A stretch of 20,426 nucleotides of DNA from a virus. The translations under genes and the position numbers were made by a program. Positions within the stretch are counted from its first letter, which is position 1. The number at the start of each line of letters is the position of its first letter. A model generated the notes under the pieces. That model was not told the DNA's origin and made no database searches. It saw nothing but the letters and a program-made list of their open reading frames with translations. Below are positions 1-7,326 of this stretch, in pieces. Where the stretch lies: IMG/VR virus record IMGVR_UViG_3300037189_009926, positions 1-20,426 of that record. The stretch is one strand, 5' to 3'.

Positions 1-1965
1 ACCTATTACGCTAAGGACTACACGCTATCGTCCCTCACTACCGAGGACTACATAACGGACCCGCGGTTCGAGACTATCCTGGTAGCCGTAGCGGAGAACA
101 ACGGAGCCCCCCAGTACCTGACCGCGGCGGAGTTCGAGGTATTCGCTCGTGATTATCCCTGGGAGTCCTCCGCCGTGGGGTGCCACAATACCGCGTTTGA
201 CGGGCGGATTCTGTCCTACCGCTACAACGTACACCCCGCGTTTTTAATCGACACTCTGTCAATCGCCCGGGTGTGGATGGGCGGGTTAGAGGCGGGTTCC
301 TCGCTTGCCAAGGTAGCGACCCACCTAGGGCTACCTCCCAAGGGTACCGAGGTGTTAAACGCCCTGGGGAAACGCGCGGCGGACTTCACCCCGGACGAGT
401 TCGCACGTTACGGGGAGTATTCGTGCCATGACGTGGACCTTTGCCGGACCGCGTTTAACGAGTTCATGCGCCAAGGGTTCCCGGAAAACGAGCTCCACAT
501 TATCGACATGACCGTACGGTGTTTCACGCGGCCGATACTCCGCCTCGATAAACCCCTGGTACGCCAGTACGCGGAGAACGAGGAGAACGCTAAACGCGCG
601 TTCCTCACTGAGGCGGTAGCCCCCACGGAGGAAGAGGCACGGGGGATATTCTCGAGTAATCCGAAGTTCGGGGCGTTGCTCATTTCCGAGGGGATAGAAC
701 CCCCCATGAAAATGTCCCCCACCACGCACAAAGAAACGTTCGCGTTCGCGAAATCGGACCCGGGGTTTCAGGAGTTGTTAGAGCACCCGGACGATAGAAT
801 CCGCTGGTTAGCGGAGGGGCGGCTAGCGGTTAAGTCCACCCTCGGGATTACGCGGAGTAAGCGGTTACTGAAACTGGCCGACGGCGGGAAACCGTTAGCC
901 GTGTTCCTGAAATACTGTGGGGCCCACACGCACCGGTGGTCAGGAGCCGACGGTACGAATTTTCAGAACCTCGATAAGGTTAAGAAGGGTAAGCCGGGGT
1001 CCGGTACGCTTCGCCGTGCCTTGATGGCCCCCAAGGGGTGGACCCTGGTAGTCTGCGACGCTAAACAAATCGAGGCGCGCATGCTGGCATGGGCCGCGGG
1101 TAACACACCGCTGTTAGACGCGTTCACGAAAGGCGAGGACGTTTACAGCGTAGCCGCTGCCCAGATTTACGGACGCCCGGTAAACCCTGCAGAACGCCCC
1201 GAGGACGACGCGCTTAGACAGGTCGGAAAAGCGACCGTACTCGGTTGCGGATACGGTATGGGTTCACTGAAGTTTGCCCAGACGATTCTACAGGGCGTAG
1301 TAGGTCCCCCTACGGTTTTCACCGAGAAAGATATTGAAACCCTCGGGGTAAACTACCACGCGTTCGCTACGAAGAAACGGGTAGAGGCCGCGATGAAACC
1401 GCCCATGAGATTGCAGGGGCAGGCACGGTTAATACACTGTGCGGTGGCCTGGCATATCTCGAACGCGTACCGACAGAGTAACCCCGCGGTGGTAGAGTTC
1501 TGGGCGAAGTGTGACCGGGCCATAGCGGAAATGATGCTAGATGAACCCGCACAGGTACTCGCTCCGCTCCCGGTTACGCTCGCCAGGCACGCGGTTATCA
1601 TGCCCTCGGGGTTGCCGATTCGGTACGCGGGGCTACAGCACGGGGAAAGCGGGGCGTATTACCTGCAGCAGTTTACACGTAAACACGTGAATTTTTACGG
1701 GGGGAAGTTCACGGAAAATCTGATTCAGTCGCTAGCCAGGGACGTACTCGCCGAACAACTGGTATGGGCTAAGGAACATATCGAAGACTGCTATCTGGTT
1801 TCGTCCACGCATGACGAGGGGATTTTCTGTGTACCCGAAGAACGCGGGGAGGAAATGCTGGCGAAACTAAAAGGGGCGTTTCGCATCTGTCCCGCGTGGG
1901 CCAAGGGTTTGCCGTTAGACGCCTCGGGCGGGTTTAACCGTAGGTATGGGGACGTAAAGAAATGA
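1..1965 (+). CDS. Family A DNA polymerase with 3'-5' exonuclease (5' end cut by window edge)
   Basis: Replicative phage DNA polymerase of the Pol I (family A) type. The frame is open from base 1, so the first ATG at 175 is internal and the true start lies outside the window; 654 residues are visible. The N-terminal part is a proofreading exonuclease: the segment starting TYYAKDYTLSSLTTEDY resembles the region just after the ExoI D-x-E motif of phage polymerases. ExoII is HNTAFDGR (about 184-207) and ExoIII is YSCHDVD (about 418-438). Polymerase motif A is CDAKQIEAR (about 1054-1080), motif B is RQVGKATVLGCGYG (about 1213-1254) and motif C is STHDEG (about 1804-1821). All expected catalytic acidic residues are present, so it should be active. 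The layout resembles the polymerases of phages that include the DpoZ group, but family membership alone does not show use of a modified base. It overlaps the next gene by ATGA. Confidence 0.95.
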   Translation, partial: TYYAKDYTLSSLTTEDYITDPRFETILVAVAENNGAPQYLTAAEFEVFARDYPWESSAVGCHNTAFDGRILSYRYNVHPAFLIDTLSIARVWMGGLEAGSSLAKVATHLGLPPKGTEVLNALGKRAADFTPDEFARYGEYSCHDVDLCRTAFNEFMRQGFPENELHIIDMTVRCFTRPILRLDKPLVRQYAENEENAKRAFLTEAVAPTEEEARGIFSSNPKFGALLISEGIEPPMKMSPTTHKETFAFAKSDPGFQELLEHPDDRIRWLAEGRLAVKSTLGITRSKRLLKLADGGKPLAVFLKYCGAHTHRWSGADGTNFQNLDKVKKGKPGSGTLRRALMAPKGWTLVVCDAKQIEARMLAWAAGNTPLLDAFTKGEDVYSVAAAQIYGRPVNPAERPEDDALRQVGKATVLGCGYGMGSLKFAQTILQGVVGPPTVFTEKDIETLGVNYHAFATKKRVEAAMKPPMRLQGQARLIHCAVAWHISNAYRQSNPAVVEFWAKCDRAIAEMMLDEPAQVLAPLPVTLARHAVIMPSGLPIRYAGLQHGESGAYYLQQFTRKHVNFYGGKFTENLIQSLARDVLAEQLVWAKEHIEDCYLVSSTHDEGIFCVPEERGEEMLAKLKGAFRICPAWAKGLPLDASGGFNRRYGDVKK

Positions 1966-2450: not shown

Positions 2451-2716
2451 CACGAGTACACGCGCTTAAGAATCTCTTGATTGATGGGGAATGGCACCCA
2501 AGTAGCGAGCTGGCACGTGTAGTGGGGCATAGGTTTGGCGCGGCCGTCTTGCTAGCGCGAAAGGATGGTTTCGGCATAGACCGTACACGGTCCGCGAAAC
2601 CCGGAGAGCACCTATACCGATTCGTGGGATACCGGGTGCATAAGGTTGCAAGCCCGAGGTGTTGCGATTGCGGTAGCTATAATATCGAAGTATTAGACGT
2701 GCGGCCCCGCCCATGA
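2447..2716 (+). CDS. Winged-helix-like small protein with a Cys cluster
   Basis: An 89-residue protein. The start at 2447 is chosen over an upstream ATG at 2381 because it overlaps the preceding stop as ATGA and sits ten bases after AGGAGG. Residues 6-60 have the pattern of a winged helix-turn-helix: a helix with a DGEWHPSSELARVVG turn, then a recognition-like helix with LLARKDGFGI and a short wing. Near residues 70-75 is CCDC, half of a possible zinc ribbon. It may be a DNA-binding regulator or an accessory to the nuclease that follows. Function is inferred from the fold pattern only. Confidence 0.7.
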   Translation: MTRVHALKNLLIDGEWHPSSELARVVGHRFGAAVLLARKDGFGIDRTRSAKPGEHLYRFVGYRVHKVASPRCCDCGSYNIEVLDVRPRP

Positions 2717-3069
2717 TTCGCACCCCCGAACGCGAGTCCCTGGTTTTATCCGCGTGCCTCCGCCATCTAGAACGATGCCCGGGGGTATTCGCCTGGCGCA
2801 ATAACACCGGTGTGGCTGTAATCAACGGCCGCCGGGTCGCATTCGGGTACCGCGGGTCGGCGGATATCCTGGCGGTTTACCAGGGCCGGTTTTACGCGTT
2901 CGAGTGTAAGTCGGCCACTGGGAGCCAGTCGGACGCGCAACGCGTTTACCAGGCCCGGGTGGAGGCCGCCGGCGGGGTTTACGCCATAGTCCGCGGAGTA
3001 AGCGACCTACCGTTTACCGCAGGATTTACGGGTAGGCGTAGGTATCATGGGTCATCGGACGATGAGTGA
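2713..3069 (+). CDS. VRR-NUC domain nuclease
   Basis: A 118-residue stand-alone VRR-NUC protein of the PD-(D/E)xK superfamily. The core is visible: E7 in the first helix, G48-S-A-D51, E64-x-K66 (FECKS) and Q76 in SDAQRVYQ. The RNNTGVAVINGR segment is also typical of this family. Phage VRR-NUC proteins are thought to process branched or recombination intermediates, and cellular FAN1 uses the same domain. All catalytic positions are present. The start overlaps the previous stop as ATGA. It ends in a basic then acidic tail (GRRRYHGSSDDE). It is the last gene before a 146-base gap. Confidence 0.9.
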   Translation: MIRTPERESLVLSACLRHLERCPGVFAWRNNTGVAVINGRRVAFGYRGSADILAVYQGRFYAFECKSATGSQSDAQRVYQARVEAAGGVYAIVRGVSDLPFTAGFTGRRRYHGSSDDE

Positions 3070-4545: not shown

Positions 4546-4805
4546 GCGAACCAGGTAGATGTGAACGTTGCGACGAAATACTCCCACTGGACAAGGAGGC
4601 TTGGGCCAAGATTGCCGAACTCACGGCCCGCGCAGAACGTGCCGAGACAAACCTGGAGGTCTGCCAGAGGCATCTGGCTAAGGCCCGCAACGCCGCGCTC
4701 GAGGAAGCCGCGCTGGCCGCTGAGGGGTGGCTACGCCATGTCCGGGTACCAGAAGACACGCTAGGCGAAAGACTCCGCGCCCTCAAAAGCAAGGCGACGC
4801 CATGA
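4542..4805 (+). CDS. Coiled-coil small protein with N-terminal CxxC
   Basis: An 87-residue protein with start at 4542 chosen because it forms ATGA with the micro-ORF stop; ATG 4518 is the alternative. It opens with RCERCDEILPL, a CxxC motif, then a long charged helix (residues about 20-65, Glu/Arg/Ala-rich heptad-like spacing) that should form a coiled coil. A single further Cys lies in the helix. It resembles small phage proteins with an incomplete zinc ribbon plus coiled coil; function unknown. It overlaps the next gene as ATGA. Confidence 0.65.
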   Translation: MSEPGRCERCDEILPLDKEAWAKIAELTARAERAETNLEVCQRHLAKARNAALEEAALAAEGWLRHVRVPEDTLGERLRALKSKATP

Positions 4806-4951
4806 CAGTTCAATCGCCTACAGGCCAAGGGCTGTGTTATTGCTGCGCCCACCCTACCGACACGTTTTATCAACCGGATACACAACGTTGGTGGGTGTGG
4901 CTATGCCTCCGGTGCGAACGCGTGTTTGTACGTACCCCGGTGCGGCTATGA
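4802..4951 (+). CDS. 49-residue zinc-ribbon protein
   Basis: Starts in the ATGA at the end of the previous gene. It contains CYCC near residues 12-15 and CLRC near residues 35-38, so two Cys pairs separated by about 20 residues: a compact zinc ribbon. The loop between is aromatic-rich (FYQPDTQRWWVW). It is probably a small nucleic-acid- or protein-binding zinc protein. It overlaps the following nucleotide hydrolase gene as ATGA, so it may be produced with it. Confidence 0.65.
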   Translation: MTVQSPTGQGLCYCCAHPTDTFYQPDTQRWWVWLCLRCERVFVRTPVRL

Positions 4952-5268
4952 AACTCCGCAGAGGTATCAAGAAAGACTCCGGTAAGCCCGCGCTGGACTT
5001 AATCGACCCGGAGTTCGAGCTCGAAATGGCCCGGGTACTGACCGAGGGGGCCAAGAAATACGCGGTAGATAACTGGCGTAACGGCATGTCCATAGGTAAA
5101 TGCATGGCGGGTATTCGCCGGCATTTAAACGCCATAGCCCGCGGGGAACACATTGACCCCGAGTGGGGGCTACAGCACGCAGCCCACGCGGCATGTGGGG
5201 TTATGTTCCTTCATTACTTTATCCGCACCGGTAAAACGAACGTACCAGACGATAGGTGGGAAAAATGA
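4948..5268 (+). CDS. dATP/dGTP diphosphohydrolase-like protein (MazZ/PF18909-like)
   Basis: A 106-residue all-helical protein. Start 4948 is chosen for its ATGA overlap; an ATG at 4834 would run across the previous gene. The signature blocks of the phage dATP/dGTP diphosphohydrolase N-terminal family are visible: DSGKPALDLIDP near the start, then GAKKYAVDNWRNG, IRRHLNAIARGEHIDPEWG and QHAAHAACGVMF. The family converts dNTPs (or dGTP/dATP) to dNMPs plus pyrophosphate with metal held by Glu/Asp/His residues. In Z-genome phages the related MazZ supplies dGMP for 2-aminoadenine synthesis, but many phages with this domain do not have Z DNA. It is followed in coupled order by a deoxyribosyltransferase-like gene, supporting a role in nucleotide metabolism. 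Confidence 0.8.
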   Translation: MKLRRGIKKDSGKPALDLIDPEFELEMARVLTEGAKKYAVDNWRNGMSIGKCMAGIRRHLNAIARGEHIDPEWGLQHAAHAACGVMFLHYFIRTGKTNVPDDRWEK

Positions 5269-5648
5269 GAGTATACGTTGCTACGAACTTCGCCCGCGCA
5301 ACGTTAGCCCGCGCGGTTATGACCACGTTAGAACAGGACGGCCACGTTATAACGCACGACTGGACCGGCGAGAACGCCGCGGGTAAGTCGGGGGACGAGC
5401 TCGCCAGGTACCTGCAGCGATGCGCGATACAGGACTTTTCCGGGGTCCGCCGGTGCCAGGTACTCGTGGTACTGAACCACCCACAGGGCCGGGGTATGTT
5501 CGTGGAGGTCGGCATTGCGCTGGCCCTCGGTAAAATCGTCCTGGTAGTCGGGCCATCCATGGCAGAGTGTATTTTTTACGCCATGGCCCAGTGCATACAC
5601 GTTGAAACCGTGGCGGATATCGCCGGGGCCCTGGCGGCCCTGGAATGA
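5265..5648 (+). CDS. Nucleoside 2-deoxyribosyltransferase-like protein
   Basis: A 127-residue alpha/beta protein. ATG 5265 overlaps the previous TGA and is preferred over 5256. It starts with a strand, MRVYVATNF, then a helix. The middle VLVVLNHPQGRGMFVEVG with IALALGKIVLVVG fits the nucleoside 2-deoxyribosyltransferase fold (PF05014-like), where the Glu in this block is the nucleophile and the G-x-A-x-A-x-G-K segment shapes the base site. The usual Asp of a D-x-D or D-G motif appears replaced by N-H-P, so activity is uncertain. It could exchange or remove bases from deoxynucleosides, or be a related nucleotide-binding protein (DUF4406 type). Its neighbour is a dNTP diphosphohydrolase. Confidence 0.65.
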   Translation: MRVYVATNFARATLARAVMTTLEQDGHVITHDWTGENAAGKSGDELARYLQRCAIQDFSGVRRCQVLVVLNHPQGRGMFVEVGIALALGKIVLVVGPSMAECIFYAMAQCIHVETVADIAGALAALE

Positions 5649-5818
5649 AAACGGACGCGGAGAAGTCCCTAGACTTACTCATGTGCACCCCGGTTACTGA
5701 AATGACCCTGGAACAGCTAACCACCGCACAACCGTTAGCCCGCGCGTACCTACCCCCGGACCACCCGTTCCTGTACCTGGTAGGTAAGGAAATTTCCTTA
5801 CGCAAGTTTGTACGCTAG
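5645..5818 (+). CDS. Small protein of unknown function, last gene of the left arm
   Basis: A 57-residue protein starting in the ATGA of the previous stop and ending in TAG 35 bases before the terminator hairpin. The N-terminal part is acidic with a helix (DAEKSLDLL); the C-terminal part is mixed (PFLYLVGKEISLRKFVR). No motif is recognised. It is included because it continues the overlap pattern and leaves no unexplained gap before the terminator. Confidence 0.55.
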   Translation: MKTDAEKSLDLLMCTPVTEMTLEQLTTAQPLARAYLPPDHPFLYLVGKEISLRKFVR

Positions 5819-5905: not shown

Positions 5906-6160
5906 TTAAAGCTCGAACGCGTGGCGGTCAGAAGTTTTCTTGCTACGTGATTCCTGCAACGCGTCCATAAACGTTTCGTATTCGACACACGTCATACCCG
6001 TTTCGTCCGGGTGGGCCTTCATATCCCCCGGGGAACGAAAGCAGACATAGGCCCGTTCGGGGGTTTCTTTCTCGCTGTCCTTCGGGATGAACTCAAGCGC
6101 GTACTTCGATGACGTATGCGCACACCCGCACAACATGACCGCCGCAAGTAGGTATCTCAT
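5906..6160 (-). CDS. Late-region lipoprotein, possible outer-membrane spanin
   Basis: An 84-residue protein. The N-terminus MRYLLAAVMLCGC is a short signal with a lipobox; lipidation is likely at Cys13. The mature part is polar, with a Cys pair (YVCFRSP and MTCVEY) and a charged C-terminus. Its start overlaps the metallophosphoesterase stop as ATGA, and it is the last gene of the late transcript. A small lipoprotein near lysis genes could be an outer-membrane spanin, but it is not the usual Pro-rich Rz1 type and its partner would have to be the signal/TM protein at 7337. Spanin identity is only a suggestion. Confidence 0.7.
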   Translation of the reverse strand: MRYLLAAVMLCGCAHTSSKYALEFIPKDSEKETPERAYVCFRSPGDMKAHPDETGMTCVEYETFMDALQESRSKKTSDRHAFEL

Positions 6161-7326
6161 TTATCCAGCCACACCTTAGCCGTTAGAACTTTCTCCCCTC
6201 CGTGACGGCCGTGCACGAGGAAAAACGCTTGCTGGGCGGGTTCGTACGATGCCTTGATGGCTTGCGCGTACAGGTTATACCCAACAAGGGAACCGTTAAC
6301 GAGGAAGTCCCCGCCGTCGAACAGCGTATGGTAGTGGCCCATTACGGTTAGGTCCGCGCGGATAGGGTTGTTCCATTGGGCGATGGCCTTACGGAGCGGA
6401 ATCGTCAAACCCCCCACGCCTCCGTTGTACTTTGTTTCATACCCGTGGATAAGCCGCATTCGGAACTTTTCGAAGAACGTACGGTAAACCATGGCGTTCT
6501 GCGACACGTTGAACCGGACCCTAGGATTATTCTCGTACCTACCCGCTAGCGAGTGGTAAGCGAACGTTTCTAGCGAGGTCCCCGTGGGGTTCCCGAAATG
6601 CATCGTGTGGGTCATCCGGCCATGGTTCCCCGGTATGAAATCGGCCTCTAACAGATATGGCGATTCCCGTAGCAGGAAATCTACACCGGCCGCGAACAGC
6701 CCCCGCCAGTGTCGGGCCGCGTCCCCCGGGGCCAACGAGTTGTTCGCCATGAGTTCGTCGTGAATCCACCCGCTGAAAAAGTCCCCCAGGGCCGCGAGGT
6801 AAATCGTGGTTATTTTCGAGTCCCGCGCCATGATATCGGTTAGCTTCAGGACGTTTTTAAAAAACGCCTCGGAGCGTTCGCGGGCTATGTCCAGGGAGAA
6901 TTCGTTTAACCCATGGACAGAATCCTTACGGACCGGTTCCTCGATATGCCAATCGCTGGCCACCGCGCACGCTATAGCGTCGTAACGCTCGGACGCGGCC
7001 CGGTCGTAAACGATTATCTCCGGGGCCTTTTGCATTTTCACGAGTTCGGCGATTCGCTTATGTAGGGACTCGTTTTCGTCTAACAGCGCGGAGTGCTCGG
7101 TTTTCAGGTCGCGCTTTGCTTTCTCGTTCGCGCGGGTGGACCGGGCTACTTCAATCGGGTCCACCGTTATTTCGACATCCTCGAGCGGGTCTGCCACCAC
7201 AGTCTTAGCGCGTTTCTTCGCCAGGTAACGCGCATGGTCCGCCCGAGCGCACGCTTTACAGTGGGGCCGATTCTTAGGGAACTCCGTTTCGACCTTTTCC
7301 GACTTACAGCGTGTGCATTGTTTCAA
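6157..7326 (-). CDS. Metallophosphoesterase with N-terminal zinc ribbon
   Basis: A 389-residue calcineurin-like phosphoesterase. Residues 4-26 form a zinc ribbon, C4-x2-C7 and C23-x2-C26, followed by a basic and coiled-coil linker (about 30-100). The catalytic domain runs from about 115 to the end with all metal-binding blocks: D125-W-H127, G181-D182, G233-N-H235, H294 and G330-H-Y-H333. Relatives include SbcD/Mre11-type nucleases and other phage phosphoesterases of uncertain substrate. The zinc ribbon resembles that of HNH proteins and suggests nucleic acid binding. It sits between lysis genes and a lipoprotein in the late transcript, an unexpected place for a DNA repair enzyme. Catalysis is probable; the substrate is unknown. 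Confidence 0.88.
   Translation of the reverse strand: MKQCTRCKSEKVETEFPKNRPHCKACARADHARYLAKKRAKTVVADPLEDVEITVDPIEVARSTRANEKAKRDLKTEHSALLDENESLHKRIAELVKMQKAPEIIVYDRAASERYDAIACAVASDWHIEEPVRKDSVHGLNEFSLDIARERSEAFFKNVLKLTDIMARDSKITTIYLAALGDFFSGWIHDELMANNSLAPGDAARHWRGLFAAGVDFLLRESPYLLEADFIPGNHGRMTHTMHFGNPTGTSLETFAYHSLAGRYENNPRVRFNVSQNAMVYRTFFEKFRMRLIHGYETKYNGGVGGLTIPLRKAIAQWNNPIRADLTVMGHYHTLFDGGDFLVNGSLVGYNLYAQAIKASYEPAQQAFFLVHGRHGGEKVLTAKVWLDK

Follow-up and report, generated by a model that had tools for sequence, protein, structure and literature searches.

A DUF5664 gene next to an NDT-superfamily gene in a viral genome fragment: a candidate nucleotide-breakdown module in phages without PurZ

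Introduction

Genes related to those described here were first studied in Z-genome phages. Phages with PurZ mostly encode DatZ along with MazZ-2 or with a DUF550 enzyme (MazZ) that is often fused to DUF5664, while phages with PurZ0 encode DutZ, DUF5664, and DmtZ, a member of the nucleoside 2-deoxyribosyltransferase (NDT) family; each of these two groups has its own DpoZ polymerase (PMC12884076). The DUF5664 protein of Arthrobacter phage Wayne (DUF5664-1) converts dATP, dGTP, and dUTP to dNMPs. DmtZ is encoded beside DUF5664 and the dATP pyrophosphatase DutZ, to which it is often fused; it converts dAMP to adenine, and the joint action of DutZ and DmtZ yields adenine from dATP (PMC12884076).

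The stretch of DNA analyzed here (hereafter, the window) is the entire 20,426-base record of a viral fragment, whose genome is incomplete. As with DUF5664-1 and DmtZ-DutZ of Wayne, a predicted purine dNTP pyrophosphohydrolase and a predicted NDT-superfamily enzyme for dNMPs are encoded close together and would be able to act in sequence. Unlike in the Wayne-type system, however, no PurZ0, Dut domain, or DpoZ was found, the DUF5664 protein falls outside the DUF5664-1 clade, and the NDT-like protein differs from DmtZ at 2 key residues. The MazZ enzymes of phages SH-Ab 15497 and PMBT28 (DUF5664-DUF550) share the DUF5664 domain, and a clade common to them and the window protein was not rejected, but the window has no DUF550, purZ, datZ, or DpoZ. 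In Stenotrophomonas virus Jojan60, an NDT-superfamily domain is likewise joined with DUF5664 downstream of a DNA polymerase gene. There, however, the domains are fused, with an NDT domain of the DUF4406 type, and the polymerase had no similarity to that of the window detectable by tblastn at an E-value of 0.01.

The NDT-like protein itself has the fold, the Tyr/Asp/Glu triad, and a Gly 4 residues before the Glu (Glu-4) in common with the N-glycosidases DNPH1/RCL and BcmB/MilB, from which it differs by an identity below 25% and by Gly75 in place of the phosphate-binding Ser. It belongs to the same superfamily as nucleoside 2-deoxyribosyltransferases such as that of Chroococcidiopsis (8pqr) and has their catalytic Glu motif, whereas the Asp found at Glu-6 in the aligned NDT is replaced by Gly75. 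Members of this superfamily can be transferases, and some act on other substrates.

The DUF5664 and NDT families and the DutZ-DmtZ relay are already known; the pairing of NDT and DUF5664 outside PurZ phages appears to be undescribed in the literature that we searched. In this literature, which lay mostly outside subscription journals, a search for NDTs in phages gave no account of the pairing in phages without PurZ, as judged from titles and the opening parts of abstracts, and DUF5664 was treated only in PMC12884076.

Results

Organization of the gene run

The 2 genes are part of a run on the plus strand (Table 1), in which ATGA overlaps occur at 4 successive junctions (positions 4,802, 4,948, 5,265, and 5,645). 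The ATGA coupling of the DUF5664 and NDT-like genes that had been noted in the original prediction is real, but as every junction of the run carries the same overlap, it reflects an operon style and is no sign of a special pair; we rejected it as evidence for one. The 49-amino-acid ORF directly 5′ of the DUF5664 gene, with its 2 CxxC pairs, possibly encodes a small zinc-binding protein. Genes on the minus strand are of the long-tailed phage type and encode a major tail protein, a tail assembly chaperone, and a tail completion protein; searching with the central tail protein of the window gave no sequenced relative.

Table 1. Features of the window discussed in the text.
Feature	Coordinates	Strand	Evidence or remark
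Family A DNA polymerase with 3′-5′ exonuclease, 5′ end cut by window edge	1..1965	+	PF00476, phrog_17
Putative endonuclease/Holliday-junction-resolvase-like nuclease, same early region	2713..3069	+	phrog_93, 3e-12
Upstream operon ORF, 95 aa	4518..4805	+	ATGA junction at 4802
Small ORF, 49 aa, two CxxC pairs	4802..4951	+	ATGA overlap with DUF5664 start
DUF5664/PF18909 protein, 106 aa, predicted purine dNTP pyrophosphohydrolase	4948..5268	+	PF18909, phrog_801
NDT-superfamily protein, 127 aa, predicted deoxynucleoside-monophosphate N-glycosidase	5265..5648	+	PF05014, AF2 fold, triad
Small ORF, 57 aa, last gene of plus-strand run	5645..5818	+	ATGA overlap with NDT stop
Exonuclease-like protein, in convergent minus-strand run	6157..7326	-	phrog_284, 7e-32

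The DUF5664 protein

The predicted PF18909-like diphosphohydrolase proved to be a complete member of its family. PF18909 (dATP/dGTP diphosphohydrolase, N-terminal; DUF5664) matched residues 6 to 96 with 97 bits (E = 6e-28; cut-off, 27 bits), spanning profile positions 4 to 94 of 99; the most conserved positions were present, and phrog_801 was matched at 8e-31. The ORF stops after this single domain and lacks the DUF550 domain of the SH-Ab-type MazZ, so that the protein is not a MazZ, which has DUF550 alone or fused to DUF5664. An AF2 model (pLDDT 91) was mostly helical and had no significant match among PDB folds, nor was a solved relative of DUF5664 found by sequence and fold. Phylogenetic testing rejected membership in the DUF5664-1 clade of PurZ0 phages (Wayne, DrRobert; AU p = 5e-4). 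Grouping with the DUF5664-2 clade of PurZ phages (SH-Ab, PMBT28) gave an AU p of 0.39, in a tree of 99 columns that is too short to place the window sequence firmly.

The NDT-like protein

Taken alone, the PF05014 match of the protein encoded downstream is modest (30.3 bits versus a cut-off of 28.8; E = 5e-7). Its placement in the NDT superfamily was corroborated by a profile of its family, which finds the solved CMP N-glycosidase BcmB (2.8e-8) and NDTs (6e-7), and by an AF2 model (pLDDT 89, pTM 0.84), of which the top folds were BcmB (2e-5) and DNPH1 (1e-4 to 1e-3), along with a match to an NDT (3e-4). Residue comparison located the triad at Tyr4 (5274-5276), Asp57 (5433-5435), and Glu81 (5505-5507).

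In rat DNPH1 (Ser87), human DNPH1 (S98), and MilB (S97), a phosphate-binding Ser precedes the Glu by 6 residues (PMC3834327, PMC10603095). The window protein has the Gly at Glu-4, as in DNPH1, and Gly75 at Glu-6 instead of this Ser. Elsewhere, Glu-6 is Ser in the NDT-like proteins of 5 of the viral loci described below (L021, L023, L031, L053, and L081), in Jojan60, and in a Wayne-like DmtZ, Thr in the DmtZ of Sapo, Leu in L025, and Ala in L107. The aligned NDT transferase has an Asp at this position, which none of the DUF5664 partners has, and an SIRG stretch in L023 and L081 resembles the phosphate-binding stretch of rat DNPH1. Judged by these residues, the recurrent NDT partners of DUF5664 look like enzymes for 5′-monophosphates. 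The window protein likely is one as well, although this is less clear: its substrate is uncertain, as it has neither the phosphate Ser of DNPH1 nor Asp12 of DmtZ.

A manual alignment placed Ala10 and Asp57 at the positions of Asp12 and Asn77, which are essential in DmtZ, and BLAST against the DmtZ of Sapo gave only a 19-residue match (E = 0.015). The protein was rejected as a member of DmtZ on these 2 key residues. The original prediction nevertheless gave a good hint in pointing to the NDT-like protein as significant by itself; an NDT-family enzyme, DmtZ, which the prediction did not name, is now known in PurZ0 phages (PMC12884076).

Searches of IMG/VR and of sequenced phages returned no close viral relative of the NDT-like protein, and those detected in a genome scan were mainly bacterial chromosomal proteins, mostly with 25% to 38% identity. 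The nearest (L107, 38%) is encoded on contig CALMSM010000252.1, binned in a Saccharibacteria MAG; no DUF5664 match was found in this genome bin. By eye, the ORFs of the contig read as phage-like, and GATC is depleted in it (4 observed versus 23.6 expected).

Recurrence of the pair

We sampled 80 other viral loci containing DUF5664 from IMG/VR (0.95 Mb), and searched all 80 whole records with PF05014, the 45 larger ones with DUF4406 (PF14359), and all loci with single sequences. An NDT-superfamily gene was detected in 7 loci and in each of them was joined with or lay close to DUF5664: L023 encodes a fusion, the 2 genes are directly adjacent in L021, L025, L027, L053, and L081, and in L031 the NDT gene lies approximately 0.8 kb downstream. 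There was no convincing NDT-like match elsewhere in the 80 loci, 73 of which had no detectable NDT partner. A random-placement estimate for the 6 close cases gave a product near 1e-11, a rough figure that treats the cases as independent and says no more than that chance placement is very unlikely. The partners are diverse (PF05014, DUF4406, DUF1937, and DUF7768). Pairing arose repeatedly, since both gene orders occur and the paired DUF5664 proteins do not form one clade (AU p = 2e-66), with well-supported branches forcing at least 4 changes.

In a reverse search, DUF5664 was found within 5 kb in 14 of 80 DUF4406 loci, in all 14 cases on the same strand and within 1.6 kb, and in 10 of them within about 110 bases. 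Several of the 14 nearly duplicate one another, L027 turned up a second time, another (L191) is the record of L021, and the query derived from paired DUF4406 copies. The fraction is therefore biased, although the nearness is still striking.

Pairs of this kind are also present in complete genomes of cultured phages. In Jojan60, a DUF4406-DUF5664 fusion (UPU15984.1), in which the NDT domain comes first and which is annotated as a purine trans deoxyribosylase, is encoded 2 genes downstream of the DNA polymerase, while in LittleE, Azrael100, and Gaia, DUF4406 and DUF5664 are adjacent or 1 to 2 genes apart. None of these 4 whole records had a match to the PurZ/PurA family (PF00709). The 45 larger DUF5664 records did not match this family either, while the Hiyaa control did.

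One of the smaller loci (L073:3698-5575) contains PurZ, DUF5664, and DatZ in a row by tblastn, and is a candidate Z-genome phage contig in IMG/VR; its detection shows that a Z phage can be picked up in this way.

Polymerase and sequence composition

The family A polymerase with exonuclease that had been predicted upstream of the pair was found as described, with matches to PF00476 (5e-18) and phrog_17 (3e-69) and with exonuclease motifs II and III visible in the ORF, which is open at base 1. A tree grouped it with L002, RHph_TM3, KPP25, Rollin, and phiA008 (support 99/98). Placement among DpoZ polymerases did not hold: both DpoZ-1 (AU p = 2e-46) and DpoZ-2 (AU p = 1e-7) were rejected. The gate residue of helix O is Tyr in the window and Phe in most DpoZ, but this residue alone decides nothing, as Hiyaa (DpoZ-1) has Tyr and RHph_TM3 and Rollin (both non-DpoZ) have Phe. 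In line with the original prediction that purZ and datZ are missing, no convincing homolog of purZ, datZ, dutZ, or DmtZ was found within this viral fragment.

GATC does not occur in the window, against 63.5 to 74.8 expected occurrences. This total loss is suggestive, though short of proof, of selection against the site and would accord with DNA that is sensitive to restriction. The doubt expressed in the original prediction about full adenine replacement was right. TATA, AATT, and GCGC are low as well. Post hoc, zero GATC was found in 3 of the 80 DUF5664 loci: L023 and L081, both with an NDT pair, and L094, in which no NDT gene was detected. We rejected a general rule linking the loss to the module; zero counts were seen in the window and in 2 of 7 module loci, but also in the unpaired L094, and GATC was not depleted in 4 paired loci (L021, L027, L031, and L053).

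Discussion

A possible two-step breakdown of purine deoxynucleotides

On balance, we favor, with some reserve, the reading that the DUF5664 and NDT-superfamily genes form a two-step nucleotide-breakdown module in a phage with ordinary DNA. DUF5664 would take pyrophosphate off purine dNTPs (dATP, dGTP, and perhaps dUTP), yielding dNMPs. Its partner, as a DNPH1-like N-glycosidase, would then pass through a covalent deoxyribosyl-phosphate intermediate on Glu81, releasing the free base and deoxyribose 5-phosphate. Because this second step destroys the product of the first, the pair would drain or sanitize purine deoxynucleotides during replication; candidate purposes are to drain purine dNTPs that are in excess, to clear away unusual dNMPs, or to salvage. 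We infer the activity, substrates, and purpose of the 2 window proteins from their domains, the triad, the predicted fold, the recurrent adjacency or fusion through independent pairings, and the absence of PurZ from complete carrier genomes. By analogy with the published reactions, the pair is most simply read as a similar relay, but with no Z pathway. Against a drain, a phage with canonical DNA would gain no obvious benefit from losing dATP and dGTP while it replicates. Also counting against the module are the 73 loci with no detectable NDT partner, the mostly bacterial chromosomal relatives of the NDT-like protein, the genome bin of L107 with no DUF5664 match, and the transferases and other substrates known in the superfamily.

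If this reading is true, it detaches a nucleotide-pool module from the Z-genome system, where its parts were originally studied, and makes the DutZ-DmtZ relay of PurZ0 phages a single instance of something that phages do more widely. DUF4406 and other NDT-like domains related to it would gain a testable role, as dNMP N-glycosidases beside a dNTP pyrophosphohydrolase, and DUF5664 would be weakened as a marker of Z genomes. It would also raise the direct question of what a phage with ordinary DNA has to gain from destroying purine deoxynucleotides.

Alternative explanations

The fragment could belong to a Z-genome phage with purZ, and datZ or dutZ, beyond its 20 kb, given that the genome is incomplete and that the DUF5664 tree cannot separate the window protein from the N-terminal domain of MazZ. 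We regard this as barely credible, as the polymerase lies outside both DpoZ clades, there is no DUF550 fusion, and GATC is absent; moreover, in the DUF5664-bearing Z phages examined, purZ adjoins DUF5664 close to the polymerase, where the window has none, and purZ was matched in only 1 of the 80 DUF5664 loci (L073) in the stretch examined. With the same kind of pair recurring in complete genomes that lack the gene needed for 2-aminoadenine DNA, the pair is no mark of an exotic genome here, and the link to Z-DNA considered in the original prediction was not supported. Its alternative, a change in the nucleotide pool that would show in virion DNA, had no positive evidence either, a pool-draining pair being more likely. 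Such a change could run through base exchange, in which the dNMP made by DUF5664 serves as sugar-phosphate donor and the NDT-like protein swaps the base, creating a non-canonical nucleotide other than Z for incorporation by an ordinary family A polymerase. NDT chemistry permits this, and DmtZ carries out base exchange with the Z base (PMC12884076). The window protein, however, differs from DmtZ at Asp12 and at the Asn of its triad, the polymerase is not a DpoZ, no base-synthesis gene was recognized in the fragment, and a protected genome would not need to lose a site at which the DNA seems to be restriction-sensitive, all of which make base exchange very improbable. If it were true, the recurrent NDT/DUF4406-DUF5664 pairs of phages without PurZ would be uncharted routes of DNA modification.

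Two further explanations were considered. The genes may balance or clean the nucleotide pool independently, sharing an operon but no pathway, with the NDT-like protein sanitizing damaged or host-derived nucleotides. The unspecific ATGA coupling, the 73 loci without a detectable NDT neighbor, and the mostly bacterial chromosomal relatives of the NDT-like protein are in keeping with this, and DNPH1 itself is a sanitizer of the nucleotide pool (PMC10603095). Set against it, unrelated phages repeatedly show adjacency or fusion, in either gene order and with NDT domains of different subfamilies, and we hold independence to be unlikely, if worth keeping in view. Alternatively, the NDT-like protein could act outside the dNTP pool, for instance on a defense signal or a cofactor, in which case the pair would be a counter-defense module. 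The varied nucleotide substrates of the superfamily would allow for this and the diversity of partners would fit an arms race, yet the pair matched no PADLOC defense model and the best folds are those of nucleoside monophosphate N-glycosidases; we consider this role decidedly unlikely.

Annotation of related genes in cultured phages

Several records of cultured phages contain further genes or labels of note. In LittleE, gp170 (L187:1483-1839) is annotated as a MazG-like pyrophosphatase, while its Pfam match is DUF4406 (E = 8e-25); gp172, the next gene but one, has a weak match to the pyrophosphohydrolase family PRA-PH. In Gaia (gp125-127; L189:1579-2776), DUF4406 and DUF5664 flank a MazG gene, and in some phages the module may include a third nucleotide enzyme. 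The DUF5664 proteins of phrog_2252, phrog_5033, and Gaia gp127 (L189:2210-2776) are labeled “endolysin; inhibits RNA polymerase”, which is probably an annotation error that has been carried over into GenBank records.
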